Positions 1 through 59,759 of a DNA stretch of 64,000 bases are shown here, in pieces. The DNA is from Rhizophagus irregularis (Eukaryota > Glomeromycota > Glomeromycetes > Glomerales > Glomeraceae), in contig NC_089438.1 of the NCBI RefSeq assembly GCF_026210795.1, positions 3,865,501 through 3,929,500 on the forward strand. Direction: 5' to 3'. Each line of letters opens with the position of its first letter. The stretch's first letter is position 1. The notes beneath the pieces were generated by a model, which saw only the letters and a list, made by a program, of their open reading frames with translations, was not told the origin of the DNA and did not search any database. The translations under genes were made by a program, and so were the position numbers.

Positions 1-3000
1 CTTTTAATTTCATCTTCCAAAATTTCCATCCCCATATCATCTAATACAGAGCTAATTAATTCAACATTTGGTCTATTATCTGGATTCAGATCCCAACACT
101 TTTTCATTAGATCAATATACCGATTTGATTTCAATTCAGGTATTTCAGGTATTTCAGGTCTAATTCCACTACATATTTGTAATGCTAATTTTTCATCATG
201 TGCACAATCATCAAAAGGTTGTCTTCCAGTTATTATATAATACATAACCATACCAAAACTATATATATCTGCTGCTTGAGTATAAGGCTTGCCTCTTAAT
301 ACTTCAGGAGCTACATAAGGCATAACTCCATAAATTTTTGTTTCATCTTTATTACTAACTTCTCCACATAATCCCATATCTGAAATACATATGGCTAGAG
401 GAATATTTTTTAAAGAATCATTATTGTTAACTAATATATTCCCTATATGAAAATCACGATGAACCATCTGCTTCTGATGAATATCTTTAAGACCTTCAAT
501 GATATATTTCAATAAAAAATATTTAATACTACAATCAGAATTTTTATAGAAATAGTGCATCCAATTATTAAAACTTCCACATTTTGCATATTGAAGAACT
601 ATAATATAATTTTTTGTATTGGGATCTTGAGATATTCCATATACTTTAAGAACATGATTATAATCACCTGTAAATGAATATGCTTTAATCTATTTAAAGT
701 ATAAACAAAATTAATATATTAATAATTATTCAATTTTATTAAGAAATTTCATACCTCATTTAAAAATTCATTAGTAATATTATATGAGTTATCTATATAT
801 TTTAATGCAACTTCTTTATAATTATCTCTTTTGAATATCTTTTTATCATAATTACATTTTAATGGACCATCCTTCCATATTGCTGAATATATTGTAGCAA
901 AACCGCCTTTACCTACTTCTTCAATATAATCAAACTGATTGTATGGCACCCATTCAAATATTATATTATCATAACTATCAATTTTCAAATGCATTTCTCG
1001 AATAAAATCATCAATCTTTTGATTTCCACTCCAATTTGTCAAATTATTTTGTATATAATTTATTTGACACGATTTACAACATTTATTTTTTAAATTACTA
1101 TATAGCTTGCAACATCTATTACAATACTGATCATTTTGAAAAACTAAAATATAATCATTTGTATTTGGGTTTTGAGATATTCCACATATATCATTATAAT
1201 TGTTAACCTGTTAAATATAAATCAAATTATTGTTTGAAGCAAAATATTTAATTGACTTAAATAAATTTTCATACCTCAATAAAAAATTCATTGATATCTA
1301 ATGTTAAACATTTTAATACAACTTTTTTATAAGAATTCCTTATCCATGACTTTGTCCTATAATATAATGGACCATTCTTCCATATTGCTGAATAGATAAT
1401 AGCAACATGATCATCAACTTTTCCAATTTCTTTAATATTAATAAACTGATTATATGGTATCCATTCAACTACTACATCATTGAAATCATTTATCTTTATT
1501 TGCTTTTCTTGAATGAAATTATCAATTTTTTGATTTCCACTCCAATTTGCAAAATTATTTTGTATATGATTTATTTCACATAGCTTACACCATTTATTTT
1601 CTAAATCATTGTATAGTTTACCACATCTTTTACAATTCCTATTTTGAAGAACTAGGATATAATCATTTGTATTGGGATTTTGAGATATTCCATATATGTT
1701 ACTATAATTATCAACCTATTAAATAAAAATAAAGTAGTTATTTCTTTGAATATTTAAGTTATCAAATTTATAAATAATTTTTATACCATATTGAAAAATT
1801 CCTCAATATCTAATGTTAAGCAATTTAATATAACTTTTTTATTAGGATTTCTTATCCATTCCTTTTTACCATATCTATAATATAGTGGACCATTTTTCCA
1901 TATTGCTGAATATGTAATAGAAGCATTTTTATCAACTTTCTCAATTTCTTTAATATCAGTAAATTGATTGTGTGGTACCCATTCAACTATTATATGAGTC
2001 AAATAATTAATTTTTAATTGCATTTTTTGAATAAAATCATCAATTATTTTGTTTCCACTTAAATTTGTAAAATTATTTTGTAAAATTAACCATGGTATAC
2101 ATTTCTTATTATTTGAAACTATAAAATAATTTTTTGTATCTGGATTTTGAGATATTCCATATATATCTTTGTAATTATCAACCTATAAATATAATGAAAT
2201 GGTTATCTAAAGTAAAATATTTAAGTTGACATGTAAAAAATTTTCATACCTTATTAAAAAATTCCTTAATATCTAATGTTAAGTAATTTAATACAACTTT
2301 TTCATTGGATTTTCTTATCCATTTCTTTTTATAATATAATGGACCATTTTTCCATATTGCTGAATATACAGCAGTATTATCATCAACTTTTCCTATTTCT
2401 GTAATGTTAATAAATTGATTGTATGGTATCCATTCAACTATTTTATCACTATAATCATTAATTTTTAATTGCATTTCTAGAATAAAATTATCAATTATTT
2501 CATTTCCACTAGTCCAGTTTTTAAACTCATTTTTAAAATAATTTATTTGACATGGTTTACACCATCTGCAATATTTATATGTATACAATTCACCACATTT
2601 TTCACAATATTCATTATTTGATAAAACTATGATATATTCTTTGGTATTGGGGTTTTGAGATATTCCATATATGTCATTATAATTACTAGCCTATATTTAT
2701 AATATATAAGTAATATAAATGTCTATTCATTTGAAGTATCTAAATTAAACTTATAAATAATTGTCATACCTTGCTAAAAAATTCATTAGTATCTAAACAT
2801 TTTAATACAACACTTGTATAAGAGTTCCTTATCCATTCCTTATTGGTGTATAATAGTGGACCATTCTTCAATATTGCTAAATATATAATAGCAGTATTGT
2901 TATTATCTTTGGCAGTTTCTTTAATATTAATAAACTGATTGTATGGTATCCATTCAACTACTATACTAATAATAATATCAGATTTATTAATTTTTAAATG

Positions 3001-5277
3001 CATTTCTTGGATTAGTTCATCAATTTTTTTATTTCCACTCCAATTTGTTAAATTATTTTGACATAAACACCACTTATCATGTATGTTTGTATATTGCTTA
3101 CTGCATTTTTCACAATATTCATCCTGTGAAACTATAATATAATTTCCTGTATCTGGATTTTGAGATATTCCACACATTAAAGAATAATACTTCTTATGGA
3201 AGGAATCATATACTTTATTGTTGTTAACCATCAGTATACTTTTAACCTGTTTTAATGTAAATAAATTATTATATTAAAAAAAAAAAGAATTTGAATCAAA
3301 CTTAAAATAATTTTTATACCTTATTAAGAAAATCATCAATCATATTTTGTGATTTATTTAAATAATTTAATGTAATCAATGTAACTTTTTTAGGCTTTCT
3401 TGTTATTTCTTCTTTAATAGGATTATAATATGATGGACTATCATTCCATATAGCTGAATGTATTATAAGTAAATCATTTTTTTCTATTTCTTTAATATTA
3501 ACAAACTGACTATATGATATCCACTCACATGTATTATTATTATATATATTATCTGATAATTGCATTTTTTGAATAAAGATATCAATTTTTTCATTTCCAC
3601 TCGTCCATTTTATAGAATTATTTTTTAAATAATTTATGAGATATTTCTGATACAATTCATAATCAAATATTCCATACCTTAAAACAATGATATATTCTTT
3701 TGTATTTGGGTTTTGAGATATCCCATAGCATGTATAATAACTTTTAGTCTATTAAATATAGATAAAGTTATTATATCTTAAGTAATTAAGTTAAATATTT
3801 AAATAATCCCTTACCTCATTAAGTAATTTATCAATAATATTTTGTGAATCATTAAAACATTTTAATGTAACTTTTAAATTGGAATCTTTCATCCATTTCT
3901 TTTTATATTTATTATAAAATAATGAACCATTACTCAACAATGCTGAATATATAGTAGCAGTATTATCATCAATTTTTCCTATTTCTTCAATATTAATAAA
4001 TTGAGTGTATGGTATCCATTCAACTATTTTATCATTATAACTATCAATTTTTAATTGCATTTCTAGAATGATATCATCAATTATTTTATTTTCACTGGTC
4101 CACTCATTTTCAAAATAATTTATGTGACATGGTCTACACCATTTAATACTTTCATTTGTATATTTTTCACCACAATTTTTACAATATTTATCTTGAACAA
4201 TGATATATTCTTCTGTATCTGGGTTTTGTGATATTCCATACAATTCATGTAATCTATCATATTTTTCAGCCTATTAAATATAAATAAAATTATTATATTA
4301 AGCATTCAAGTTAAATTTACAAATAATTCTCATACCTTACTAAGTAATTCATCAATAATATCTTGTAAACCATTAAAACATTTTAATGCAACTTTTATAT
4401 TAGGATTTCTTATCCATTCCTTTATATTAGTATCATAATGCAATGGGCCATTATTCCAAAATGCTGAATATATAGTAGTAGTATTGTCATCAACTCTTTC
4501 TATTTCTTTAATATTAATAAATTGATTAAATGGTATCCATTCAACTACTATATCACTAGGTACATTAATTTTCAATTGTATTTCCTGAATGATATCATCA
4601 ATTATTTCATTTCCACTGGCCCAGTTTTTAAATTCATTTATAAAATAATTTCTGTGACATGGCATACACCATTTATTATTATATTCATCTGTATATTGTT
4701 CACCACATTTTTCACAATATATATCTTGTAAAACGATGATATAATCTTTTGTATCTGGGTTTTGAGATATTCCATGCATATCATCATAACATGTATTAGC
4801 CTATTAAATAAAAAAAAGTTATTTATATTAAATTATCTGAATTAAACTTATAAATAATACATATACCTCAATTAGAAATTCATCAATTATATTTATTATA
4901 TTTTGAGAGTTTTTTAAACATTTTAATACAACATTTGTATTAGGCTTTCTTGTTAATTCTTCTTGATTAATATCATAATGCAATGAACCATTATTCCATA
5001 ATGCTGAATATATAGTAACAGCATTATCAATATTTTTTTCTATTTTTTTAATATCAATAAATTGATTATATGGTATCCATTCAATTATTATATCATCATA
5101 CCAATTAATTTTTAATTGCTTTTTTTGAATAAAATTATCAATTTTTTCATTTCCACTTGTCCAATTTGTAAAATTATTCTTTAAATAATTTATTTGACAT
5201 GGTCTACACCAACTTATACTCGTGTTTGTATATTTTTCACCACACTTGTTACATACATAAAAATGATATAGTACCAT
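1..5277 (-). CDS. Kinase with nine tandem Zn-ribbon/N-lobe modules (3' end outside window)
   Basis: Predicted protein kinase of the fungal TKL-like type, at least 1,552 residues, ten exons in the window. Exons (minus strand): 5277-4867, 4800-4336, 4270-3815, 3748-3320, 3246-2770, 2690-2250, 2182-1787, 1715-1275, 1207-755, 689-1 (continues). All nine introns are 65-79 bp, GT-AG and phase 0. Exons 1-9 each carry a CxxC...WCxxC zinc ribbon (eroded in several), an NWTSGN linker, and kinase strands beta1-beta3 plus helix C. Exon 10 carries beta4-beta5 and a whole C-lobe: HRDFHIGNIL catalytic loop, SDMGL in place of DFG, VAPEV, and CWDLNPDNRP. Only exon 9 has an intact glycine loop (GKGGFATIY) and the VALK lysine directly before the C-lobe, so one catalytic unit is expected. 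The start ATG at 5277 directly precedes the first ribbon; an upstream exon cannot be excluded. The C-terminal tail lies beyond base 1. Function is inferred: signalling kinase, probably cytosolic, as no signal peptide or membrane segment is seen. Confidence 0.85.
755..5277 (-). repeat. Nine-copy phase-0 exon array (Zn ribbon + kinase N-lobe)
   Basis: Copies in protein order, with exon length and state. M1 4867-5277, 137 aa, starts with ATG. M2 4336-4800, 155 aa. M3 3815-4270, 152 aa. M4 3320-3748, 143 aa, both cysteine pairs lost. M5 2770-3246, 159 aa, second pair reduced to WCLC, with a deletion. M6 2250-2690, 147 aa. M7 1787-2182, 132 aa, ribbon deleted. M8 1275-1715, 147 aa. M9 755-1207, 151 aa, the only copy with a glycine loop. 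The period is about 520 bp. From M2 onward each exon begins with the beta4-beta5 segment (GISQNPDTKDYIIVLQ type) and then runs straight into the next zinc ribbon. Read across introns, each module is therefore a ribbon plus a full N-lobe cut at the hinge. M8 has no ATG-initiated ORF and is visible only from its splice sites and similarity. Confidence 0.88.
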
Positions 5278-8200
5278 TATTTATTCTTTTATTAATTTAT
5301 TTAAAAAAAAAAAATTTTAAAAGCGTTAAACTTCGTGTCATATTTTTTTATAAATTTATAATGTTACACCAGAGTGTTTGTTACCTCAAGTCCTCAACAC
5401 AAAATAACAATGTAAAATTTAAATATTGTTTCCAATATAGTTGAAATCGATGTCAATCATGTCAATCATGCAACACGAAAAAAAATATACAAGCAAATAT
5501 GATATTTGTCCTAATTTTTATTTATGTGATAAAATAAAATAAGATTATATTCTCTGCTGAGGTAATAGAGACATATAACTTCAACGACTTAGACGTAAGA
5601 CGAATACATTTACGTAAATATTACTTATCTAAAAATTATTTGAAAAATAACTACTACAAAAATCTTTCTCATATGAAGTATTCCGCAGATTGGTGGATAC
5701 GTACTAAAATTAACATAGTTAAAATTTTTTGTTGAACTAAACAATATACAGCCCATAATTCTAGAAAGCCCCATAATTTACGCCGATACTGTAGGACAAC
5801 CAATTTTGTCTGAGGATCTGCATGAAATCTGCAGGTGCCGTTCCAAATAAATCACCTCATTTTTACTAAATCTCATTCGTTCTCCATTTTTGATAGCCAT
5901 CATGTGAGTTCTCTTATTACTGCGCCACCCGCAGCTGTCTTCAAAAGTCAAAATTATCACTTTATGGTTCTTATAGGTTCCACTTTTTCGTTTATTGTAA
6001 CAATGCTTAATACTCTTGTTTATTATCGTTTTTCCAAAATATTTCAACTTATTTTTTTAGTTCGATAAAACCCTATTTTTTAAATAAAACTTCGTATAGG
6101 TGTAAAAATAAACTATTATAAAGAAAATAAAAAAAAAATTGGTTTTAATAAAAAGAGGCTCAAGTTATTTTAAATTTTTTTAACTTTCATATAATTTTTT
6201 GTCCTTTTTTTTTCGACCATAAAATTTTTGGTTGTGACTTATTGTAATAAAACTAATATTGGTACAAAAAAATTTTTACTTATAAGTCCAAATTGCATCT
6301 ATATAATTTAATATTATGTAATACTACAAATAAAAATTAAATTCTCATGATATTTTCTTGATTACAAAATTTTATATTAACATCTACAAACAAATCAGTA
6401 GTTTAAGTGAGAGCCATTATATAAATCGTAATTCAATAGTAGCATATGGTGATGCTTTTAACAGTATTTAATTTTTAGCATCATGGCAGTCCATATATTC
6501 TTTTTTTATAAATGCATAGGGCTTAATAATGTAACCAAAAAAGGAAGAAAAAATTTCCCAAAAATAGACAGTCCTTAGTAAACGTAGTAACCTCAGTATG
6601 AAAAAATATACTAATTTAATATGAACTACATAAAACTTTATAATGAGCTTCCAACTAAACAAGATTTTTGATTATCATCACAAAAATTATCAAAATTTAA
6701 ATATTTTGTATGTGTTTAAGTGTTATACCAAGTTCGATTTTTAATAATAATTTGTCATTAAGAAGGTAATTTTCAATACAAAACACAATTCATTAAGAAT
6801 TAATTCATCAGCTGCAATTAAAAAGTGCAAATATTTGTTTAAATATATTATTGCGATTTCAAAGTTTACCTATATAATTACTGTACATATATCTGAAATT
6901 TATCAATATTTGAAAGTGTAAATATTGTATTAAAATAACTTATTAATTATTATATTCACTTGATACGAGTATTAAATACTTTCACTGAAATACTGTATTC
7001 GGATTTTACTAAAGTTTAAATAATTGATTTCAACCTTTATCCAATTATTTGAAAATGTAAAACGAAAATAAGGTGAACTTAATATAAAGAATGTAAAGTT
7101 TTCTCCTCTCCAACTAATATTTTCACATCAGAAAATTCACAATTTTAATGATTTTGGAATATTCTTATTTTAATATTTATTCCGAAAAAAAAAGTGATAA
7201 AATCCAGGCCTAACCTATAAAAATTTATTCCATGATATTTCCGTAAATGTTTAGTTTTATAGAAATTACGAATAAAATTTTTTACAAAACTAAAGCATAA
7301 TTATGTTTGACGATCTTGAATTATGTTGTATTATTTGGTGAGATAAAGGTTAGTGGGTCAAAAACCTATCAAACTGAACAAAAAAATACTAACGAAAAGG
7401 GGAATAGTAACTTTATAAGAAAATTATGTTTATGAATACAATATTTGACAGCCAATATTTTTTATTATAATTGACTTTATTTTATCTTTTTTTAAGAGTC
7501 AGCAACAATAGATAGATTGTACTATACATTTTTGTTCATACTATATAATAATATGTTTGTAAAAATTTAAAATTTTACAAGTTTTGATAAATAACAATTT
7601 GAAATTATTTTATTTATTAACATAAACATTTTAAAAAAGTATTATATAAAAAAATTTATTATTAATAACGTACATAGCCAAAATATTAAAAATAAAAAAG
7701 TATTATCAATAATAATTACTAAAAATATTATATATTATTTAAAAAAATAATATATGACAAATAATTTTCTGGTGACTGATTTCTAAGAGAGTCTACAGTA
7801 ACAGTTTTTTCTAATAAAAAAGAACTGATATACATACTTTTTTATTATAGTCAGTTTTTTAAAGTAAGTAGATCAATTTTCAAGAAAGATCAGAAAAACT
7901 TTGATAAATCAATTTTTATTCTAACTCGAATGTATAATAATTTTGAAAAGTTAAATTGCATGATTTCCATTAATCTCATTTTTTTTATTAATAAAAAGTA
8001 TAACTAATCGTAATATTATAGTATATAATACATAATAATTTTTATAATTCATTATGCATCTTTTTTTATCATCAAAAATCAATAATTTGCTAGTTACACT
8101 TGCTTATTTTTTTTCTATTTAGCTCATTAGAAAATTAATATATTATTTATTTTTCAAAATGTAAAATTGATTTTTATTAAGAATTTCTATTTAAAGTCAA

Positions 8201-8592
8201 TCTAATTACACCATTACAAAAATAGTGTTTCATACTATTGTCTTATTACAGTCAGAACTCAATATAATGATTCGGGATAAACCGATTTTTGACTCATACC
8301 GATTTTTTCCCAAACTATAATTTCGCGATATAGCCCCTTTATTAACTCTTTTATTATCATTATGTCTATAAATAAGCATGGTTACTTTATCTGTAGCTCA
8401 AGTTTTATAAATATAATATAATAAATAAAGCGTCTATTATATAAACCGAATTATAAGTATAACGATCTAAATCACTTGAACAGAGGTTTTTTACTTTTTA
8501 TCTTTCACTCATTTCGTATAAAGAAAATGTTTATGTAAGTACAAATATATTTTTTTGTGTCATAATAATATAGCGCAAATAATAACTAGAGC
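5278..8592. other. AT-rich intergenic region, no supported gene
   Basis: It holds the presumed 5' flank of the modular kinase gene, which reads leftward from 5277, with A/T homopolymers directly upstream of its ATG. Short ORFs around 5.8-6.1 kb and 6.5 kb lie on both strands and show no domain, splice pattern or codon signal I can support. A stretch at 8.25-8.48 kb vaguely resembles pogo-type transposon termini but is not convincing. Confidence 0.6.
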
Positions 8593-9178
8593 AGTGAACT
8601 TAATAAATGATTATTCGTTTTCTTCATTTTTTTTTCTTTAGGGATCTGCATATGATAAAGAAGTAACCTAGACGTGTTCAGCAGATAATTTTAACAATAA
8701 TTGATTACCAATCAGTTTTTTTTTTTGTTACCTTTCAATTAATACTACAATTTTTTATTTTTTCAGAATATTAAATCTAATAAATTTTTCTATTCACTGT
8801 AATATTTAACGTTTACTTGTTTTGGTTATTAGGCTAGCTTTGTTCACGTGTCAATGATAACCGCTTCACATTTATTCGATTAAGCAAAATTATATTTTCA
8901 TTTATTAATATAGTAATAATTTTTTAATTTTTTTCATAGATAATAATAACTAAATAACTTAGTCAATTTATTTTAAAGGCAACTTGCTAATTTTATTTAA
9001 AGATAATTTATAATATCTTTGATCGTAATTACTTTTGACATTATTAAATTATTATATTTTTGAATTTTAAGAAAATGTTTATGTCATTAAATATCAATTC
9101 GTTTTAACAATAAAATTAAGAAAAATGATGTTAAAATAGAATGGAAAATCAAATTTATTCTTATCATAATAATCACTA
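8593..9178 (+). repeat. Kinase 5'-flank repeat, copy 1 (truncated)
   Basis: Shares a long, collinear, imperfect match with 14.2-15.6 kb (+) and with 57.1-56.5 kb (-). Shared landmarks in order are: a T-rich tract, TAACCTAGACGTGTTCAGCAG, CAATAATTGATTACCAATCA, a TTTTTTCAG tract, TTGTTCACGTG, and a stretch around ATCTTTGATCGTAATTAC. This copy stops near 9178, where the other two continue towards a kinase promoter. Confidence 0.75.
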
Positions 9179-9760
9179 TAATGGTGTAGTAACCGAAAAA
9201 TAATTTGCTGCAACGATGCAACGTGACCCGAACGATTAAACCGGGTTCAGATGATCGGCAATCAGGAATTCGGCTCGCAGAAATATATACTCAGTAAATT
9301 CTTACCGAAATATATTTTTCACTAACGTGACCTGCTCAAAATTTTGTACCGGATCGAATTCTACTATGCCCGCACGTGCTCGCTTTGATTGTAGTAAATG
9401 GCCTGAATTTTTTTTAAAAATGAACCCTATGTAGAAAACATGATGTAATGAAAATGTAATACCATATAATTTAAAAATATATTCACATTTAAAACCAGTT
9501 TCATCACATGATCGTAGAAAATTGAGATGCCCATCACTAATTATTAAACCCGCACCTTTATTCATTTTAGCTTATAGCCTTTCATTGTGAGTTATCAATC
9601 GTGTGATAATTATGCATAAATTAATGATATTACCTGCAAAAAATCAAAAAAATTCAAAATTCAAAAAATTTGCAATTTTTACGACCGCATTCTGGTTACT
9701 TTTTTTTTTTTATTACTTTAAAACATCCTAACCTAAATTGGTATATCCACAGTTGATAAA
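9179..9760. other. Intergenic, nothing supported
   Basis: An 87-codon ORF on the minus strand (9302-9565) is the longest reading frame. I see no domain, no splice partner and no homology I can name, so it is not annotated. Confidence 0.5.
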
Positions 9761-9762
9761 TT

Positions 9763-10975
9763 ATGACTGAGTTTTGTCCGTCCATAGTGAAAATGTGGAT
9801 TCTTCTTGAAGGCTTACCGAGTCCCTTAAAATTGGGAGCTGACGTAACTAAGGTCTAAGATTTAAACGACTTCAAAGGAATTCTCAGTAGCGAGTTCAAA
9901 GAGTTAAAAGGTGTTAGACTGCATAATATTATATTTTGGGGCAATGACAACATACCTATTCGACCAGGAACTGAATTCCAAAGCTTAGCTGAAGAAACAA
10001 CTGATGAAAATCGCTCGTTGTTCGCTACCCGATCTCAGCTATAAACAGTAAGTGAGGTTTATTTCTTGGCTTTGTTTTTACCACTTCAAGCAAGTACTTA
10101 TTTAAGGTGACATCAATATATGGGCAAAAGTACGGCAAACGCGAAATACCATATACAAGTGGTTCTTTTGATCAGTTGGAAGCTCTTGCTAGAGAATTTT
10201 TTGGAGATTTAGAGGAAGGAACGTTTATTTTGTAAATTATGGAACAGAGATTTGGAATGCGTACAACTTTAACACCATAGTGAAGTCTCAAACAGCACAA
10301 GAAGACAATAACGTTGTGCTTAAATTAAAAGTTCTGATTAAGGGCTGAAAGAAATATAGCGACTGGAATCTTAAAGCTGTGTTTAAGGATATACTAAGAC
10401 GACAGACTTATGGATCACTTGCTAATATGCAAAAATTTTACATGAAAGAATATGCCCCACTAGATCCACCATTTACTGGGGAGGAGTTAAAAGACTTCGT
10501 TACATAACTTAATAAGCATCTACTTTCATTCGATAAGGAATTTGGCAACGGAATGAAGAATCGTGCATATATCAATGCATTTATGTCACATGCAGTTTGT
10601 TACATAAAAAATCATATAAACTCAAATATAATGTTAGATGTGGAAAAACAGTTGAGTGGGACTATGGGAGTCATGGGTATGGTCCCATAGATTATTGGGT
10701 AATATTTGTTGATATTTTGTTACTGTTATGTGAAGCAAAGTCGCAAGATATGGACCAAGGTGTTGCTCAGGTTATCCGTTCAGATGTGGAGTGCAATTGA
10801 ACGACATGAACAGGATCATGTGATTTATGGAATTGCATGGTTCATCAGAAAATCCGAAAGTTCATATTTCTCAAGAATACACTTGCAGTTTCGAGGATAA
10901 CATGGAAACCGAAAAAAAGTATTAACATACATTATTCAAATACTAAAAGCCCAAGTTGATGCTAAAAGTGAATAT
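9763..10975 (+). pseudogene. Broken Crinkler-like (CRN) gene with PD-(D/E)xK-type C-terminus
   Basis: The first frame (ATG 9763) encodes a ubiquitin-like header of the Crinkler type, with the segments LNDFKGILSSEFKELKG and NIIFWGNDNIPI. It has an in-frame TAA at 9856-9858. Further pieces follow in shifting frames: about 10330-10505 (a helical segment including FYMKEYAPLDPPFTGEELK), then about 10597-10800. The last contains YGPIDYWVIF...LLLCEAKSQDMDQGVAQ, which matches the acidic...E-x-K layout of the nuclease-like C-terminal domain seen in many glomeromycete Crinklers. At least one premature stop and several frameshifts are needed to read it through, so it is non-functional as written. Family knowledge: intact CRNs are secreted or nuclear effector-like proteins. 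I infer this is a relic. The header is the less certain part; the C-terminal motif is the better evidence. Confidence 0.6.
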
Positions 10976-12640
10976 CCTTCAAAGTGAGTTAAAGTAAATG
11001 AATAATGAATTCTTATCCATATAATTAGATATATTTTTTGTAAACCTAATCTTGCAATTTATGAAATAATAATAAAGTTTTGCCTACAGGATTCTTAATT
11101 TTTTGCCCCTGGTTTACATTTTGTGAATCAAATTCGAGAAAATCAAGATCGATTTCATACAAACTTTAAACGGTAATGATAATAGGATTCCAGTGTAATA
11201 CAATCCATCGTTATGGTATGAATAGAAGTAATAGCTTGCATATCTTGCCACGTTTTTCCCAAAAGTTCATATTTCTTTTCATTATGCATGTAAAATACCC
11301 CTATTTCCATTTTTGTGTTGCTTAAATTATCCAATTTAAATCAATAACCTGGATCAAAATCAAAATCAAAATCCCAAATCTAAGTTAAAAATAAATTAAA
11401 TACCGAAATCAAAAATTAAAATAAATCAGAAAGCGGAACAGAATTAAAAATTAAATCAAAAACCCTAGAAATAAATCAAAGTCCTGAACCAAAATTAAAT
11501 TAAATCAAAGACCCGAACCATTTAAATTAATCTATCACTCAGGTGGTAATTAAAGATCAATCCTACTATTTATGCTACAACTATCCTTGTTTCTCAAGAG
11601 ATACATGATTCTGGCCGAACCTTTTGTAATGCCGGCCTTGCAAATAGTGGTAAGATGCTTCTGTGAACCAATTTAAGGTATTTTCTTTACAAAAAGATTT
11701 TGTTATTTCTCGGTTCTTAGTTTGGTTTTATTGTACACTTGTTGAAGTCACTATTTCAAGAATATGTTAAATTTTCAATTTTTAATTACCATTTTTATTA
11801 TCAATATAAAAAAAAATCTATCATTCACTTTGCTTATTTTAGCTTGGTCATTTTTTCTTCTTCATTCACCGTCTTCAATTTTCTAAATAATTACGCAAAT
11901 AAATAATACTAACAACTAAATATAAATTAATAAAAAAAATATTCAATACTAGGTAGTATATTCATTATTATTTATTTTTATAGTGTCAACCTTAAATCAT
12001 TAAGAATTAACTTGATCAAATTTAATGCGAAAAAGATTTTAGCTTTTTTTAATCAATGTATACAGTACGTATTTTTCCAAGGAATTTTATTTTTTATGCA
12101 TAGTGCATAAAACGCACCCTTAAGTTTTACTGCGGAATTATGTTTGATAATGGAGTTTAGGGTTACGCAATTTGTCTAGACTTGGAAAATTTTTTAAAAA
12201 ATAAAAACCCTTTTTTCATATAATTCATATTACTTTCGCACAAAAAAACAATTATCAAAACAATGAAGAGTAAGTTTGAAAATTGTTTGTTTCCAAGGAA
12301 GGAAAATTTTATTTAGAAATATATATTTGGTAATGAATTTTTAGATATACCAATTATTTACTAACTTTTTTTTTAGTCGATATACAAAATTCTGTAATTT
12401 CGGCGTTGAAATACTCAAAGTCACGTGAAATCATTATTTAAGCGCGCACTAGTTCCAATATTTAGTAACACGCTTATAAATATTCATTGAAAAAAAAAAA
12501 CTTCGAATCAATCTTTTTTCATTAATTTTAAATTAATGATGAATCAATTTCACCATTTCTATTGTCTGCTGCGGATATTTGATATTTATCTGTAAGTCCG
12601 AAATGGTTATTTATCCTAATCTAAACTCGGTTAGATCAAA
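10976..12640. other. Intergenic; simple AATCAAAA-type repeat at 11340-11525
   Basis: No coding signal. Bases 11340-11525 are a degenerate short-period repeat of the type AAATCAAAATCCCGAACC. The rest is AT-rich and unremarkable. Confidence 0.6.
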
Positions 12641-13075
12641 AAGACGATAAAATTGATAGGGTGACTAATTCATTCGGCAAATTATTTATTAATAATGACT
12701 AAATAATTTTTTTTAGATTCTTTTAGGTTCGACTCCTGGCTTCGGGATTGTTGAGATGTAAGTCGTTCAATAATAGGTTAGACGTTTGTTAATAATTTAT
12801 AGTTATTAAGTAAATAAATTGTATGACTAAAATATTTCTTTATTTTTTCTTTAGGTTCTTTGGTTTTCTGGCTTCAAAACCGATGGGGTGGCTAATTTAT
12901 TCGACAATTGGTACAGGGCTACAGGCGTTTGATTCTCTTTGATTTAGAATTGATTTATTATTGAATATTTTTTAGATGTACCATTCCTTTTTATTTATTT
13001 TAATAGAAAAATTAATAATAATTTTTTTTAAGTTCAGCTCTTGGCTTCAAAACGGTGAATTGATTTTCCCTTTGA
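12640..13075 (+). repeat. Three degenerate tandem copies of a T-tract + TTAGGTTC motif
   Basis: Three successive blocks (about 12720, 12850, 13030) share a T-rich tract ending in TTTAGGTTC or TTAAGTTC. This is followed by a short segment with CTGGCTTC and, in the middle copy, AAAACCGATGGGGTGG. An ATTCGRCAA segment with a TTTATTnATAATT spacer recurs between them. The layout (pyrimidine tract, AG, then a short conserved block) resembles the other mini-exon-like repeats of this window. Confidence 0.45.
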
Positions 13076-14214
13076 TTCGAAACAATAACATGTTGATTGT
13101 TTTATTCAAAATTGGTTATCCTAACTTTTTTTTGTCTTCAAGTTTTTAAAATAATAATATTTTCTCTTTTTTCTCTTTCCTTAATGAATGGATGCTTTAT
13201 ATATTGCTATAAGTTCGAATTTTTTTAAAAAAAAATTTTATTTATAATAAATAAATATCAATTGTATATATTTTTTTAAATCATTTAATTGTTTGCATAA
13301 ATATTTTTTAATCAAATCATCTTCAATCATTTTTTAATCATTTTATTAATTCTTATAATTTATTTTAATAATTTTTATTTGAAACGACTAGAAAAGTTGA
13401 TTTTTTTTTAGACCTGGTTTATAAAAAAAAAATTTTTTTTTTAATATCATTGTTTTATGTATTTTCGAATTGTATAACTTCACGCCGGATCCGGAGTAAC
13501 TTCTATACCATCTATCGCTATAAAAAAAAATCATCAAATAAATGAAACAAAAAAAAAAATTTCAAAAATTTTGTTTTTATTGTAAGATTTAAAACTAAAA
13601 TGTTCTGAATTACAATAATGAGTATCAGATATTTAATATTTTCAAATAACTTTTAAATAAATTTCGAAGGGTATGAGAATTTACATTTATTTATTCTATA
13701 TTATTATAATAATCAATAGAAAAATTTAATATAATTATTATATAAAAAATTTAAAATTTTTAAACTTTTATTATGATACAAATAATTTTTATAGCGGAAA
13801 CTCTTTGGGAGATAACGTAAAATTTTCGCCATTCATGAAAAAAAACAAAACTGAGCACATTAAATTATCCATGCCAATTGATTTATATTTATTTTTTTAT
13901 TTTTGTAAAAGGAGTATATACTTATCTTTATTATAAAATAGCTATATAAGAGATACTGTACATATGAATCAAAATAATTTTATATAACTGTTTTGAAAAT
14001 TAAAACAATTAAAATTTTTTTATTTAAAAAGACATCCAAAAAGAAAAGAACTCTTTTACCAAGTACAATTAAGAAGAAAGAGACTCAATTATTGTTTTTT
14101 CGTTTTTAAAGTTTAGACCAGGTTTGATAATCAGAACGAAGCTACGGTGCTACGGATTTATAATCAATATATTTAAGTTATATATTTTTTAATTTGATAG
14201 TAAATATGTTGGGT
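13076..14214. other. AT-rich intergenic, nothing supported
   Basis: Long A and T runs, no plausible exon. A fragment near 14115-14155 (AGACCAGGTTTGATAATC...CTACGGTGCTACGG) resembles the end of the dispersed mini-exon motif. Confidence 0.55.
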
Positions 14215-16204
14215 GTAAATTAAAATTATTTATTTTCTTCATTTTTTTTTTTTAGATTCAGTCAAGGGGATCTTGCATGTGACACAGAAATAACTTGGAC
14301 ATGCTTAGCAGATACACCTTTTTTTTAGCAATAATTGATTATCAATCATTTCTTTTTTTTGTTTATCTTTCGTACTGTTACCGGTTATATCGGTAAGTAA
14401 AGGGTCGTATAACTAGTGGTTTTAAATCGTAAATTTACACAATTACAAACGGGATTCTTACTCAATACTACCTATCCTGGTATTCCGGTATTGTTCGTTA
14501 AGAATCAACAAGGTGAATAACTACAAAATACGATTAACAATAATACACGATGGTTATAAGACGAATCTTATAATAATACACAGAAACAACAAGTTAAATA
14601 AACTAAAGTGTGACGATTTTATTAAATAAACGTAGGGTTATGAGTTTACAACAAACGATGAAAAGTGATGAAAAATGTCAGGGAGAATAGAGGTATATTA
14701 CTTAAGGGAATCCTAATATATATCTTTTTCAACACGTTGGTAGACGGTATATTTATCTAACTGCCATCTCTTTTTCTGACATCAAGGGCGGAATCTAACC
14801 TATTGATATCTAATCATTAATGTTTCATCGCAATATTACAATAGTGATAACTTGTATTGTAAGCCACTTTTTAATAGAACACAATCAATAGTTTTTGGAC
14901 AATTAATACTATTGAATTATTTCCACTCAATAACTTCTAATAAAATTGTAAATACTAAAATAATACAAATAAAGAAAATAAATAATATAAATAATAATAA
15001 CTAAATAAATTGAATAACTATAGTAATGATATATATGTAAATACAACGTATAAAATCAATATCTTTAATATAGTTAACTGATATACACAAATCAGCAACT
15101 AAATCAACTCGTAACACCGGGAATCGACATGTACACAAATGTACTGAAGTCTCATCGGATCACCATACAATATCGGAAATCACGTGCGCAAGAAATCGCG
15201 TAACAGTACTTTAAATTTTATTTTTTCAGAAAATTAAATCTAATTATAATAAAATTTTCCATTTGGTAAAGCTTACTGCCATATTTAACATTTACCCTTG
15301 TTTGGCTATCAAGTTAACTTTGTTCACATGTCCATAATTGAAAATACTGACCGCCTCCCATTTATCCACTTACAGTAAGCAAAGTTATGATATTTTCATA
15401 TAACTTCCTTTCTAATTATTTCATTTATTAATATAGCAATAACTTATTGTAATAATAATTTTCTATAGATAATGGAAACTAAATAATGCAATCAAATTAT
15501 TTTACTGACAACTTGCTTATTTAAGATAATTTACAGTATCTTTGAGCGTAACTACTATTATTATATTTTTGAATTTTGAGAAAATATTTAGTAGGAGATG
15601 GAAATTTTTTAATAATTTATTGTTTTGTCATAATAATTACTTTTTTATTTACAAGCAGATTGAAATTTTTATACTAAATATTACCTACTTTAATGATAAA
15701 TTATATATAACTAAATTCATTCATTAAAATGAATTTTCTTTATATAATAATGGTAAAATATTTCTTTTAGTTTTATATAGATTTAAAGTAACTATACTAA
15801 TTGGATAATACATTTTTTGAAAAATTTTTAATCTAATAATTTTAACACGATTCTAATTATAATAATTTTAATGCACATTGATTGACCGTACTGTATTTTT
15901 CAAAATTCAATAAAGTACCTTTATACTATAGTATAATTAGTTGTACTAACAAATAATATTTTGTGTTGGGTTTTTTTTTTGAAACAAGTATTTTGTTTGG
16001 GATTTATAAAAAGGAAATTCCCTAATAATCTGTGAATTTTTGTGATTATCAGTTGACTTCTACTTTATTGTTTGACACAAAATTTTGTCAATCGCTGCTG
16101 TGCAACTATAATACGTTTTAAAAGGCGCCTTCTTTTTTTTTAAAAAAAAAAAATCTTTTTATTCTGTCTAGACATAAAATTGAGGTCACATTTATTAATC
16201 CAAT
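14215..16204 (+). repeat. Kinase 5'-flank repeat, copy 2 (interrupted by a solo LTR)
   Basis: Collinear with copy 1 (8593-9178) and copy 3 (56190-57105, minus). It continues without a break into the immediate upstream region of the kinase at 16544, so the repeat is a duplicated kinase 5' flank rather than a random dispersed element. The solo LTR at 14376-15205 splits it; its two halves join to match copy 3. Confidence 0.75.
14376..15205. mobile_element. Solo LTR (830 bp) with 4-bp target duplication
   Basis: Begins TGTTACCGG and ends GCGTAACA, i.e. TG...CA termini with a 6-bp inverted end (TGTTAC/GTAACA). It is flanked by GTAC on both sides (14372-14375 and 15206-15209). Removing the element and one GTAC restores a sequence collinear with the uninterrupted copy at 56.9-57.0 kb. 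No internal retroelement coding sequence lies nearby, so it is best read as an LTR left by recombination between two LTRs. The family is not identified. Confidence 0.8.
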
Positions 16205-16543
16205 ATGGAAGAAATTATGCTCAATGACGATGTATTTGAGCAAATAAAAGATTTTGGCCATTGGAAAGAACCAATGAACAAAGTTTGTTTTAATTGATAA
16301 GTTAATATTAAATGAAGAATTAAAAGAATGATCGACGAAGCTTTTTTTTTTTGTGAAACAAGTATTTTGTTTGAGATTTATAAAAAAGGATAATCCGTGA
16401 ATTTTTATGATCATCAGAACACTATTTTGTCAATCGTTGCTGTGCAACTATAATACGTTTTAAAAGGCGCCTTTTTTTTAAAAAAAAAAAATCTTTTTTA
16501 TTCTGTCTAGACATAAAATTGAAGTCACATTTGTTAATCCAAT
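15985..16543 (+). promoter_or_regulatory. Duplicated promoter/5' leader of the kinase at 16544
   Basis: Two tandem copies, offset by 339 bp between their ATGs. Each has GAAACAAGTATTTTGTTTG, then a GTGAATTTTTnTGATnATCAG segment, TTTTGTCAATCG, GTGCAACTATAATACG and TTTTAAAAGGCGCC. These are followed by a T9A12-type palindrome and ATTCTGTCTAGACATAAAATTG before the ATG. The proximal copy (about 16353-16543) is the likely working promoter. Confidence 0.6.
16205..16333 (+). pseudogene. Truncated duplicate of the kinase first exon
   Basis: ATG at 16205 opens the same N-terminus as the functional gene at 16544 (MEExMLNDDVFEQIKDF). Small indels around 16265-16292 then shift the frame and it stops at TGA 16295-16297. 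Similarity to the functional gene ends near 16333, about 130 bp after the ATG. It arose with the duplicated promoter and cannot encode a kinase. Confidence 0.85.
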
Positions 16544-18238
16544 ATGGAAGAATTTATGCTCAATGATGATGTATTTGAGCAAATAAAAGATTTTGACCAA
16601 TGGAATCTAACCAATGAACAAAGTTTGTTAATTGATAAGTTAATATTAAATGAAAAATTAAAAGTAATGTATAAACAGAATGGTTTATGCAAAGAATGTA
16701 AGCATCTTAAAACTCATAGTAGTACTTGGTGTAATACATGTTATGCTAAGAATTTTCAACAAAATTTCAAAAATTGGACTAGTGGAAATCATGAAGTTGA
16801 TAAATTTATTCAAAAAGCACAACTTTCAGCTAAAAAATATGATGAAGTTTTAGAATGGATTGAATATGACAGATTTGAAAATGTTGAATACTTGACAAAA
16901 GGAGGATTTGGAACTATTTATAAAGCAATTTGGAAAGATGGATATATAAGAAGTTGGGATTCTGAGAATAATAAATGGGATAGAAATAAATATTATTGCA
17001 GATTATATGAGGATTTTCCAGTTGTTTTAAAATGTTTACATAATTCTAAAGATATTACATCCGATTTTTTAAAAGAAGTAAGTTACTTATTTTGTATATA
17101 ATTTCAAGATATTGTCCTATTATAAATGTTAAATTATCTATTAATTATTATTATTATGGATTCCTTTTTAGATTGAAATGCATAATGCGTTTTTTTCAGA
17201 ATATATAGATAATATAACATGGTGTTATGGCGTTACTAAAGATCCGGAATCTGGAAATTTTATGATAGTAATGGCATATGCAAAAGATGGTAGCTTAAGA
17301 CAACACTTAAATAAAAGTTTTAATTCAACAAAATGGGATGAAAAGTTGAGGATTTTACAAAATATTGCAGAAGGCCTTAATTATATCCATCAAAAAGAGT
17401 TAATTCATCGTGATTTTCATTGTGGTAATATATTAATAGAAGACAAATATGCTTTCATTACTGATTTAGGATTATGTCGACCAGCGAATGTAAAATCATC
17501 CCAAAATGAATGTAAAGAGCTATATGGAGTATTACCATATGTGGCACCAGAAGTTTTAAGAGGAAAAGAATATACTCAAGAAAGCGATATTTATGGATTC
17601 GGAATTATTGCATATGAAGTCTGTACAGGGCTTCCTCCTTATCATGATATTGATCATGATAAATTTTTATCCATTAGCATTTGTCAAGGACTTAGGCCAA
17701 AATCAAATTATAAAATCCCTCAATTAATTTTAAACATAATTAAACAATGTTGGGATGCAGATCCTTTAAAACGACCTAAAGCAAACGAATTACGTGGTTT
17801 ATTAAATAAATTATATGAAAAATTAGATAATGATGAATCTGAAATTAAAAAGCAAATTAAAGAAGCAGAAAAGATTAATGAAAAGTTGACATCATCATCT
17901 ACTGGACCTACTCTTTCATATACTACAAATCCTCAAGCAGTTTACACGAGTAGGCTTTTAGATTTTAAAAATCTTCCAGAACCAAAAAATGCTATTGATA
18001 ACAAGGATGATGATAATTCATTTGGAGAATATTCAGGTAATTAATTTCCTAATTTACTTTACAAAAGCATTCTTTAAATATTTCATTTGATGTATATAAT
18101 TATTTTTTTATATTATAGAATCATTAGAAGCATTGGATTTTACTGAACTAGACCTAGGTACTTACATATATTAACCTTTTATATGATTTATTTTATTAAT
18201 AATATTATTTAATAATTTATTTTTCACTTATAGAATAA
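16544..18238 (+). CDS. Zn-ribbon TKL-type protein kinase (480 aa, 4 exons)
   Basis: Exons 16544-17077, 17172-18036, 18119-18157, 18234-18238 (ends in TAA). The first intron is phase 0 and the last two phase 1; all are GT-AG. The protein has an N-terminal helix region and a zinc ribbon with Cys 49, 52, 63 and 66, then the NWTSGN linker (77-82). The kinase domain shows glycine loop KGGFGTIYKA (119-128), ATP lysine K163 in VVLK, catalytic loop HRDFHCGN (H257, D259, N264), DLG (276-278) instead of DFG, APE (303-305) and CWDADPLKRP. All residues needed for catalysis appear present. The tail is Ser/Asp-rich with a KNLPEPKNA motif shared with the other kinases here, then a short SLEALDFTELDL end. 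The start is fixed by the duplicate 339 bp upstream. Specific substrate unknown; inferred to be a cytosolic signalling kinase of an expanded family. Confidence 0.92.
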
Positions 18239-32248: not shown

Positions 32249-34509
32249 TTAATTTTCATCCATATCTAAATTCGTTAGAAGGAATATTATTTTAAATAAA
32301 AAATGGAATTTTAATAATTAAAAACTTTTTTTATGATTAAACAAAAAACTTTTAAAATACTTACTCTCGGGAAGTTCAAATTCATCTTGTTCTTCAGAAT
32401 GAAAATTTGGATTATTATATATTTCTTCTTCGTCTATAAATAAAAAATTTGGAAATATAAATTAAGTTAAATATAACTATTATAAAAGGTTAAATAATTA
32501 TTTGAATATACCATCAATATTAATACGATTTCTCTTCATTTGTTGCATTATCTCTTGAAAATCTAAAAATTAAAACAAAAATAGCATTTAATATTAAACA
32601 ATTAGACAGATATACCAATTATTTTACTTACCATTTTCTAATCTTCTTTTGAATGATTTGTTACTGCTAGCTAAAATTATTAAAAATAATTAATACAAAT
32701 TCATAATAAAAATAAATATTAAAATAAAATAACCTACTTATTTTTGAAGAATTATTATTCTGATTACTCAATTTACCAATATCATCAACTAAAAAAGCAA
32801 AATCAATTAATAAATATCTTATACCATATTAATGATTAATATAAACTTAATAAATACTTACTATGATTAGGGATATGAAAGTCACATGATTTGTTACTAT
32901 GAAATGCTAATAAATGGAGATAATTTATCAATTAATAATTTATTTATAAATAAAAATTTATAAATAAAAATGATAAAATTGTTTAATTTATACCCTGTTG
33001 TTCTTCTATAAAATTATATATTAGTTAGTATTAAACTTTTTTCTTTTAATGTATTTAATATTATAATAAATACCTTCCGTTGCATTTCTTGGCTCAGGAA
33101 GATTTTCAAATTGATGAACTTTACTTGTAAATAATAACTTGCTACTGCTAGTATAATTTTCTAAACTATTCATTTCCGATTTTGTATCATTTTCTTCTAA
33201 TTTAGTTGAGGTAGTATTTTGGTAATATTCTCTTATTTTTTTGCGAAGTGTAACAATGTCTGGTCTGTTTAATGGATTAGCATCCCAGCATTGTATCATT
33301 AAATTTTTATATTCTATAGGAGTTCCTGGTACAATTTTTGGTCTTATACCTTTAATTATATTCATTGCAAGATAATAATCATGTTCATAATTAATAAATG
33401 GTGGTTGACCAGATGAAATCTCCCACATAAGCATTGCAATACTATAAATATCAGATTTAAAAGTAGTTTCTTTTCCTGCAATAACTTCTGGTGCAATATA
33501 AGGAAGATTTCCATATATACTTTTTAATGGTCTATCTGCAGGTCCACAAAATCCAAGATCACTAATATTAAATACTCCGCCAAAATTGAATAATATATTT
33601 CCAGAATGCAAATCTCTATGAATTGCATTTTCATCATGAATTCGTAAAAGTGCTAAAATTATACTAGCAGCAATTTGAATTCTTTTTTTCCATGTAAGTT
33701 GATTATGATTTTGTTGTAAATAATTTCTTAAATCTATATCCAATTCATTCATTACAAGCATATAATCTCCATTTAATGGATCTTGTGTCAAACCAAAACA
33801 TTGAACAATCGCATCATACCATTTATTACTTATATTTAAATGTGAAATAGCCTATAAAATAAAGAAAATATTATAAAAGCTTTTAAATAAATAATTGTAA
33901 CATTATTAGATTACAAACCTCTTCAAACCAACGTTTATTTGCACTTTCAACATTTTCTAATCTTTTAAGTACCACGTATTGTTCCCCAAATCTTTTAAAT
34001 TGTTGTTCCTTAGAATCCCATTCATCATAACTTCCATTAATCCACTCTGCTGTATAGATTTCAGAGCATCCACCTTTTGTTAAATAATTAATATTTTTAA
34101 AATTAATATATGGAATCCATTCAACTATACTATCTGGTTTAATTGTATTCATTTGACATTCTTGTATTAAATTATCAATGTCATCATTTCCAGATGTCCA
34201 ATTTGAAAATTTTGCTTTTAAATAATTTCGAACACAAAATTCACAATATAATGTAGCTAAACATTTTTGGTTACAATTTTCACAAACTCTTCTTGTTCCA
34301 TTATCAAAAATAATTTTATTACGGTCATAAATTTTATTCAATTCTCTTATTGCTTCAGATTTTTCATCTTTTGTAAGTGATTCATCAGCAAGAATTATTT
34401 GTTTTTGAAATTCATCTTGTTTGTGTATATTATTGTGAATATTAAAATCTGTTAGTGCAAATGCTCTATAAATTGCAGCATCAATTAAATTTTCTCTAAT
34501 AACAGACAT
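32249..34509 (-). CDS. Zn-ribbon TKL-type protein kinase with small-exon acidic tail (550 aa)
   Basis: Ten exons on the minus strand: 34509-33919, 33851-33074, 33005-32994 (12 nt), 32906-32862, 32788-32738, 32670-32632, 32562-32512, 32433-32365, 32265-32249 (TAA) are nine clearly spliced pieces; I find no tenth in the window. The first intron is phase 0 and all later ones phase 1. The zinc ribbon CENCNQKC...YCEFC is followed by NWTSGN. The glycine loop is KGGCSEIY, without the third glycine. The ATP lysine is in VVLK, then HRDLHSGNIL, SDLGF (DLG for DFG), IAPEV and CWDANPLNRP. The tail ends with the IYNNPNFHSEEQDEFELPE cassette and a short NMDEN end. Exon sizes for the first four exons are identical to those of the 49205 paralogue. 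The terminal exon is the least certain. Expected to be an active signalling kinase; substrate unknown. Confidence 0.9.
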
Positions 34510-34560
34510 AATGAAATAATTATACTGTAAATTTTTTTTTAAAATAAGTTTGAAGCAAGA
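34510..34560 (-). promoter_or_regulatory. Conserved 5' leader of the minus-strand kinase
   Basis: Read on the minus strand the ATG is preceded by TTTACAGTATAATTATTTCATT. The paralogue at 49205 has TTACAGTATAACATATTTCATT at the same place, supporting both start codons and a shared 5' leader. Confidence 0.5.
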
Positions 34561-35628
34561 AAAAAAAAATATTTCTGGAACGGTCTCCGAAATTCTACTT
34601 ATAAAGTTACATTCGTAAACATTGTGTAACCAAATGATTCATTAAGTAATCTCTAGTACAAATTAATTTAGTAAATTGTAAATCTTTTTACTAACTAAAT
34701 AAGGGTTCTACAAAATGATCATAGTTACATGATTTTTTCTTTTTTTTTTTTTGAACATTTTACTAATCTATTTATCCCAGAAAGTCAAATGTTTTAAAAT
34801 ATTTATTCATAATATTCCCAGCTAATTTGCTAATAAAAGTTAGTCTTTTTAAGTATGTAATACTTCAGTCTTTTTATGGTCCCGGTTTTCAAAACAATAA
34901 CGTAACAATAAAAAGTTAAAAGATAATGTAATTTAATAATTTTAAGATGGATGATTACATTATAAAATGTCATTGTTGATATTATGTTAAAAGTATTATT
35001 GACAAATCCTCGAAAAAAAAAAAATGATCTGCGGAATTCAACGGAAAATGATTTGATGAATAATGCTATCACGTGTGTGAAAGTATAAACGTACGAAAAA
35101 TTTATGAATCAAGAGAAATAAATTATGGTTAACTTAAAAGTCTTTTTGAGTAGAATTTAATGATAGTATTTTATAAAATGAGACTAAAACTAGTCAAATA
35201 ATTTATTAATATTTTATTTTCCAAAAAAAAAAAAAATTTTTTTGTAATATGATTAAATAAATTTTAACTAATGATTTTAATGACATTATAATAATAAAAA
35301 ATTGTTATTATTACAGTATTACTCTCGCAGATTTTAAATACGGTAATAAATTTTGCCTAATTAAAATCATCAAATTTTTCTAAAATACGGTATAAAAAAA
35401 AAGAAATAAAATCGTACCAAGTTTTGCCTAATGTTCTAAACCCTTAAAACTCTTATAACGTTAAAAACTTTTAGAAAACAAAAAAATAGTTACAGTATTA
35501 ACTTTATTTAATATGCAAATAGCACGAAATTATAATCTATGCCATAAACCCACTAGAACCTTAAATACCATTTTATTTCGCATTGTTTGTTTTTACTTAA
35601 TGAACTTATTTTTTTATTTCAAAGTAGA
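34561..35628. other. AT-rich intergenic, nothing supported
   Basis: Upstream region of the minus-strand kinase. No conserved promoter block beyond the leader is apparent. Confidence 0.5.
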
Positions 35629-49110: not shown

Positions 49111-49129
49111 ACACCGGTTCTAACCTTTT

Positions 49130-49204
49130 CTTTTCTTTTTATATAAAAATAATAAATATATTGATAAAAAAAATTTAAAGCCTTACAGTATAACATATTT
49201 CATT
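49130..49204 (+). promoter_or_regulatory. Upstream block of the kinase at 49205
   Basis: CACCGGTTCTAACCTTTTC followed by a pyrimidine run lies about 90 bp upstream of the ATG. The paralogue at 59760 has ATTCCGGCTTAACCTTTC in the same place. The leader TTACAGTATAACATATTTCATT just before the ATG is shared with the paralogue at 34509. Role inferred from conservation between copies only. Confidence 0.45.
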
Positions 49205-59650: not shown

Positions 59651-59759
59651 TAAATAGAATTCTGGGGTCATAATTCCGGCTTAACCTTTCTATTCTTTTT
59701 TTTTCTTCGTTTCAAAGCCCATAACAAAAAAATTTTAAACCTTTGATTTATATTTCTTT

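Follow-up and report, generated by a model that had tools for sequence, protein, structure and literature searches.

In a 64,000-nucleotide stretch of the genome of Rhizophagus irregularis (contig NC_089438.1, labelled C10 here, positions 3,865,501 to 3,929,500; hereafter the window), a minus-strand gene encodes nine protein kinase N-lobes in tandem, most of them accompanied by a zinc ribbon, followed by a single C-lobe; the ATP-binding glycine loop is intact in the ninth N-lobe alone. The reading that we favour, with a probability of roughly 0.6, is that the gene specifies one polypeptide in which a C-terminal kinase, with the sole intact ATP loop, lies behind eight pseudo-N-lobes that act as a binding or self-association string, and that the array originated from a symmetric exon. 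The observations behind it are the exon structure, the placement of module boundaries at the kinase hinge, the confinement of the loop to the last module, the retention of reading frame, the predicted fold, and the recurrence of such arrays at other loci and in R. clarus.

The gene has ten exons, running from an ATG at 5277 to window base 1, and its TAA stop follows after 128 further coding bases beyond the window edge. Each of the ten exons has a length divisible by three and all introns are in phase 0 (66, 65, 66, 73, 79, 67, 71, 67 and 65 bp, in order), giving a spliced product of 1,595 residues. The array region contains nine consecutive frames of 133–169 codons, whereas the longest open frame in window positions 5601–16000, where the six frames carry 0.072–0.084 stops per codon, is 92 codons. 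A first-pass annotation, made from the sequence before the present analysis, had described nine similar exons in tandem with 65–79 bp phase-0 introns and then a single C-lobe exon, and the exon/intron structure bears this out. The span that it gave, 755..5277, takes in the nine modules but leaves out the C-lobe exon, which occupies 689 to 1 plus the 128 bases.

The same annotation had credited each module with strands β1–β3 and helix αC. These are present, but exons 2–9 open with a β4–β5 stretch (GISQNPxTxxY...) that closes the preceding N-lobe, so the inner N-lobes are complete and are cut at the hinge. Exon 10 opens with a stretch of the same type and then passes through the hinge into a full C-lobe; in exon 5, an extended stretch of 24 residues lies ahead of the β4 GISQ. 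A zinc ribbon, which had been ascribed to every exon, was found as CxxC...CxxC in six of the nine modules (1, 2, 3, 6, 8 and 9), whose paired knuckles would qualify them as zinc ribbons; module 5 has CxxC...CxC, and modules 4 and 7 have neither pattern.

Table 1. Exons and introns of the array gene, and other zinc-ribbon kinase genes of the window (window coordinates).
Feature	Coordinates	Strand	Content
Exon 1	4867..5277	-	Start codon, Zn ribbon, helices, N-lobe β1–3 and αC (module 1); no Gly loop
Exon 2	4336..4800	-	Lobe 1 β4–β5, Zn ribbon, module 2; no Gly loop; partly in P0122 model
Exon 3	3815..4270	-	Lobe 2 β4–β5, Zn ribbon, module 3; no Gly loop; in P0122 model
Exon 4	3320..3748	-	Lobe 3 β4–β5, module 4; no Zn-ribbon cysteine pattern, no Gly loop; in P0122 model
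Exon 5	2770..3246	-	Lobe 4 β4–β5, CxxC...CxC, module 5; no Gly loop
Exon 6	2250..2690	-	Lobe 5 β4–β5, Zn ribbon, module 6; no Gly loop
Exon 7	1787..2182	-	Lobe 6 β4–β5, module 7; no Zn-ribbon cysteine pattern, no Gly loop
Exon 8	1275..1715	-	Lobe 7 β4–β5, Zn ribbon, module 8; no Gly loop
Exon 9	755..1207	-	Lobe 8 β4–β5, Zn ribbon, terminal module 9; sole intact Gly loop GKGGFATIY; VALK lysine, αC Glu
Exon 10	1..689 (+128 nt outside window to TAA)	-	Remaining αC, β4–β5, hinge, entire C-lobe (HRDFHIGN, DMG, APE)
Nine phase-0 introns	4801-4866, 4271-4335, 3749-3814, 3247-3319, 2691-2769, 2183-2249, 1716-1786, 1208-1274, 690-754	-	65–79 bp
Single-N-lobe Zn-ribbon kinase gene	16538-18044	+	
Single-N-lobe Zn-ribbon kinase gene	33021-34638	-	
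Single-N-lobe Zn-ribbon kinase gene	49124-50654	+	
Single-N-lobe Zn-ribbon kinase gene	59739-61210	+	

The terminal module and exon 10 together have the sequence features expected of a eukaryotic protein kinase. The glycine-rich loop (GKGGFATIY), the β3 lysine (VALK) and the αC glutamate (NEFLNE) are all present in exon 9, and HRDFHIGN and APE in exon 10; the DFG position reads DMG, with Asp and Gly retained. Pfam reports PF07714 at residues 1266–1537 of the spliced protein (E 6.6e-39), and PDB sequence matches, considered for a placement in the TKL group, are mixed (JAK, TAK1, Roco4, EGFR and RIPK1). As the kinase match is confined to the C-terminus and the gene contains one HRD-type motif, it does not qualify as a tandem (pseudo)kinase, which is defined by two or more complete two-lobe domains. 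Several other array loci have C-lobes in which the HRD arginine is replaced and the aspartate retained: HHD in H, K and L, HCD in J, O and T, and HQD in E.

Among 23 array loci of the genome, GGF was found in the loop of the last module of 22, the remaining locus having GRF, and in 0 of 156 earlier modules. These are the loci that were fetched rather than a random sample and many are partial arrays; C26 possibly comprises two genes, the stretch fetched for C2:766k stops short of its C-lobe, and C23:1356k has its terminal module split into two pieces. We then compared 90 terminal with 939 inner near-full-length lobes, partial matches being dropped, in the best 120 of 339 proteins found by a database search with the window gene; these represent 90%-identity clusters, so that the entries are related, and lobe counts from the hidden Markov model can split one lobe, as in P0004. 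GGF occurred in 87 of the 90 terminal and nine of the 939 inner lobes. In eight of those nine cases the lobe is the last of its protein, and our script had not matched the C-lobe motif there; module 3 of P0086 is a genuine exception. The rule holds less strictly in 13 further proteins with at least two lobe matches, with GGF in the last lobe of seven, in the last but one of one and in none of five, some of which may be truncated models. The three loop glycines were present in 90, 98 and 96% of terminal lobes versus 49, 6 and 26% of inner lobes, the loop phenylalanine in 98 versus 24%, the β3 lysine in 98 versus 85% and the αC glutamate in 98 versus 65%. Other residues were retained in terminal and inner lobes alike, namely the β1 tryptophan (100 and 97%), the alanine and the tryptophan after β2 (98 and 96% each) and the β4 glycine (100 and 99%).

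Structure prediction, P0122 covering part of exon 2 with exons 3 and 4, gave an N-lobe fold with an αC helix in the inner lobes, at a predicted template modelling score (pTM) of 0.58–0.60. Foldseek with the inner-module model returned two matches at E < 0.001. Pfam found nothing above curated cut-offs on single module exons 2, 8 and 9, and a PDB sequence search with the inner-module alignment gave weak matches only, to E 1 (ribosomal eL37 best at 0.14; the Src-Abl ancestor at 0.57). The inner units thus combine a degraded loop with a predicted N-lobe fold and have no C-lobe, and on this model they would not count as pseudokinases, in which the whole two-lobe fold is present with degraded motifs. 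The inner lobes of three arrays on C16, at 577800-584383 (L040), 862235-869234 (L039) and 603900-608619 (L041), have a shortened β1–β2 turn (e.g. KKISNTIYSALW) and often VEINL in place of VALK; here the ATP loop appears to be deleted, not mutated.

Because the inner lobes have lost the ATP loop yet keep fold residues, the earlier suggestion that the extra N-lobes are binding or oligomerization modules serving one catalytic unit fits these data. In the mechanism that we propose, all exons would be spliced to one mRNA, and the kinase would be preceded by eight pseudo-N-lobes, mostly with a zinc ribbon, that have lost the ATP-binding loop and keep the predicted N-lobe fold. The inner lobes would then form a multivalent string, for protein binding or self-association, that positions or clusters the single kinase; tethered to the kinase, this string could bind, cluster or regulate it. 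A different role for the same lobes would be allosteric and in cis, with the inner N-lobes packing beside the terminal one, in the manner of a RAF-type dimer or of JAK JH2 on JH1, and tuning its activity rather than binding outside partners. The αC helix is a usual N-lobe contact surface and is predicted in the inner lobes, and N-lobes of JH2 pseudokinases, RIPK2 and TrkA are numerous among the rows of the VIA alignment of inner lobes. At these pTM values, however, the prediction resolves no packing of modules against each other, and as many as about 25 modules exceed the needs of one contact partner; we regard this role as improbable.

The layout could also be read as a bank of alternative exons, spliced singly or in subsets to the common C-lobe exon, to give many kinases or variable arrays. 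The window exons have equal phase at both ends, as such a bank requires, and since all are in phase 0 any subset stays in frame; any single module exon joined to the C-lobe exon would give a whole kinase-like chain, and lesioned modules could be skipped. Against this, functional interchangeability is absent, with the glycine loop in the last module only, and other exon choices would probably give dead kinases because the earlier modules have no ATP loop. In copy C of the array, moreover, only 27 in-frame nucleotides are left of the intron that separates modules 3 and 4, and both modules lie in one open frame of 314 amino acids (aa), and annotated models, which are predictions and not reads, join many modules. 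The annotated protein P0005 reads through the 27-nt remnant, but the same model omits about 90 C-lobe residues and skips the exon 1 lesion, so the annotation is not proof of one polypeptide. Retrocopying as the cause of the intron loss was ruled out, the 27 nt of intron left in frame being a partial deletion. We consider an exon bank quite improbable.

Copies of the array bear on its age and upkeep. Five more nine-module copies are present in the genome, at C10:3843k, C10:3435k, C29:2933k, C29:3052k and C8:450k. In a tree of 56 modules, from which three frameshifted modules were left out, eight of the nine positions form their own clade (support 0.93–1.0), and the order of the nine modules therefore predates the copies; position 2 is not a clade, two of its copies grouping with position 3, and the terminal module of a five-module array groups with position 9. 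R. irregularis and R. clarus have a five-module array in common: P0055 matches C29:2985k at 69% over 1,052 positions, and four of its five modules best match the same position. Among gaps between the nine-module copies, a length divisible by three is seen in 293 of 310 exon cases, against 34 of 148 for introns (the pairs compared are non-independent, and the shrunken intron of copy C was left out). The 17 non-triplet exon gaps all fall at positions 1, 4 and 5, each of which has one frameshifted copy.

Every module is open in the window copy and in copy D, and the other four of the six copies have a lesion in exactly one inner module: module 4 in C10:3843k (B), 1 in C10:3435k (C), 5 in C29:3052k (E) and 5 in C8:450k (F). 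The pooled ratio of non-synonymous to synonymous divergence (dN/dS), calculated with seven exons left out (the four with lesions and three outside the coverage at that point), is 0.44–0.78 (0.55–2.37 for A versus B, on few changes), and copies differ by 10.6% in exons and 11.6% in introns. We conclude from these ratios, from the similar exon and intron divergence and from the lesions that selection is present but not strong, or that some lesions are sequence errors; the published assembly quality is Q36.27 (PMC10234402).

Alternatively, symmetric exons, which duplicate readily by unequal crossing over, may have proliferated neutrally, leaving the extra N-lobes as slowly decaying passengers with no role in the kinase. 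The dN/dS range, the inner-module lesions in four of six copies and the tandem, near-alike modules of two long arrays, C2:1368k and C2:766k, the latter with broken module frames, all lend themselves to this explanation, as does the large and already known kinase expansion of R. irregularis (PMC10234402 and PMC8647823; 2,533 kinase genes are stated in the former). It accounts less well for the frame kept in all exon gaps other than those at frameshifted positions, for the many inner-lobe fold residues kept at 88–99% despite loss of the ATP loop, for the sharing of a five-module array by two species, and for the ratio of non-synonymous to synonymous differences (pN/pS) of 0.43–0.56 in the framework of the two similar-module arrays. 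We judge neutral proliferation unlikely. In those two arrays, of which 20 and 21 inner modules were aligned (two of the second array being skipped), the β2–β3 hairpin insert is hypervariable, differing from module to module in both sequence and length. A recognition loop under positive selection was considered and rejected: pN/pS in the insert is 0.59 and 0.62, with some 9-codon windows above 1 (highest 3.28).

The origin of the array is suggested by four single-N-lobe zinc-ribbon kinase genes in the window (Table 1). Each has one intron, at the same site after the αC glutamate (judged by eye), and a Pfam kinase match in the second exon (four of four). By eye, the inner exons of other arrays (H, I and J) also begin like a C-lobe exon, up to the hinge. 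The shared intron site and this beginning of the inner exons suggest that the founder arose by loss of a C-lobe between the hinge and the next ribbon: the 5' end of a C-lobe exon, to the hinge, would have been fused to a zinc-ribbon/N-lobe exon. The array would then have grown by amplification of the resulting symmetric phase-0 exon, delimited by the αC introns of successive copies. Several arrays (window 5277; P0112) have a first exon that starts MVL or MVF, in line with the hinge I-M-V-L of their inner exons; it looks like an inner exon trimmed to the hinge methionine, which would then serve as start codon.

The arrays form a large gene family. In the genome searched (146,748,485 bases in 32 contigs, with protein-query searches scoring the best 150 candidates), exact patterns occur at 973 EWIPYNQF-type, 875 YGISQNP-type and 354 HRDFHxGN-type sites, and reversed controls at 0; the sites are unsorted by family, and the HRDFHxGN type probably takes in other kinases. 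At C2:1368000-1378900 (L046/L047) there are 21 similar modules, and at C2:766200-778200 (L048/L049) about 25, some with broken frames; both arrays have no zinc ribbons and one terminal GGF lobe, and the second matches annotated P0241 (3,396 aa, 26 lobe matches) in 128 of 169 sampled 20-mers. Across arrays, module number ranges from about four to 26 copies. The 339 database matches to the window gene are 877–2,791 aa long, and the best 120 include proteins from R. irregularis, R. clarus and G. cerebriforme; one annotated homologue is named OCT59_002235. With a 19-lobe R. clarus protein (2,678 aa) as query, 78 matches of 1,473–4,686 aa were obtained, the full list; every one with at least two lobe matches is named R. 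irregularis or R. clarus. G. cerebriforme is among the shorter arrays and R. diaphanus pieces also matched; for a third protein search, which gave the best 120 of 294, the species range is that of the matches listed. The first-pass annotation had asked for such a glomeromycete search, and had named an assembly artefact among the findings that would overturn it. The lesions in four of the six copies might be cited for reading the array as an assembly artefact or as pseudogene debris. Against this, annotated homologous arrays occur in further R. irregularis records as well as in R. clarus and G. cerebriforme, the frames of the window copy and of copy D are fully open, and the assembly was built from long reads (PMC10234402). 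An assembly artefact is untenable in view of the annotated homologues, and the explanation as a whole has a negligible probability; chance was rejected too.

P0245 of R. clarus (3061 aa) has about 19 lobes, and P0247, P0248, P0250 and P0252 belong with it in a range of 8–19 lobe matches. Its lobes, of LEWIPYDKF and EFGKEYSANW type, look by eye like another kinase subfamily, which suggests a separate origin, so that arrays may have arisen more than once. We put it at about even odds that in Rhizophagus fungi the kinase N-lobe is now a free-standing repeat domain, with up to about 25 pseudo-N-lobes, hinge-cut and devoid of the ATP loop, ahead of one loop-bearing kinase, and possibly of repeated origin. 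Array proteins without any C-lobe are not claimed as a class: 17 of the best 120 lack both the HRD and the APE motif used by our script, but the last lobe of six of these carries GGF, several have the customary kinase tail at their end, and others are apparently truncated. P0255, named from the endosymbiont GvMRE of Glomus versiforme, a bacterium, has one N-lobe match of the array family, with GGF; transfer from the fungal host or contamination is possible.

An open-access literature search found no description of N-lobe arrays, in keeping with the earlier view that a layout of many N-lobes and one C-lobe was undescribed, and the layout is found again at many loci of the genome and in further species. 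The available portions of PMC10234402 and PMC8647823 do not mention such arrays in their accounts of kinase expansion. Arrays are easily overlooked in annotation, because a Pfam scan of the window protein saw the terminal kinase only. The two kinase lobes are usually viewed as inseparable halves; here the N-lobe alone is multiplied and one complete kinase is kept at the array end. On the reading as a free-standing repeat domain, this would be the first case known to us of a kinase N-lobe put to such use. The arrays give structure to part of the kinase expansion in an arbuscular mycorrhizal fungus, and they offer a natural series of 1 to about 25 lobes in which N-lobe folding and partner binding without a C-lobe can be tested. 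If the N-lobe has indeed become a repeat domain, they would represent a novel class of repeat protein and a new route to multivalent kinases.

Tandem pseudokinase–kinase proteins, such as JAK (JH2–JH1) and the plant tandem kinases, have both lobes in each unit and usually two units. The array resembles them in that degraded kinase-derived domains lie N-terminal to one active-type kinase in a single chain, and its inner lobes resemble the JH2 N-lobe; it differs in repeating the N-lobe alone, hinge-cut and many times over. In tandem-repeat scaffold proteins (Sel1, TPR and similar), repeat strings are joined to signalling enzymes, and the array is likewise a repeat string joined to a signalling enzyme, although to our knowledge no repeat class is built, as it is, from a kinase N-lobe. 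With symmetric exon arrays of the Dscam type it shares many homologous same-phase exons ahead of a constant exon, but its members are non-equivalent, with the glycine loop in the last alone. The closest likeness is to the single-N-lobe zinc-ribbon kinases of the same genome, which have the same zinc ribbon, WTSGN stretch, N-lobe, intron after the αC glutamate and C-lobe; they differ in having one N-lobe per C-lobe, and appear to be the form from which the arrays were derived.

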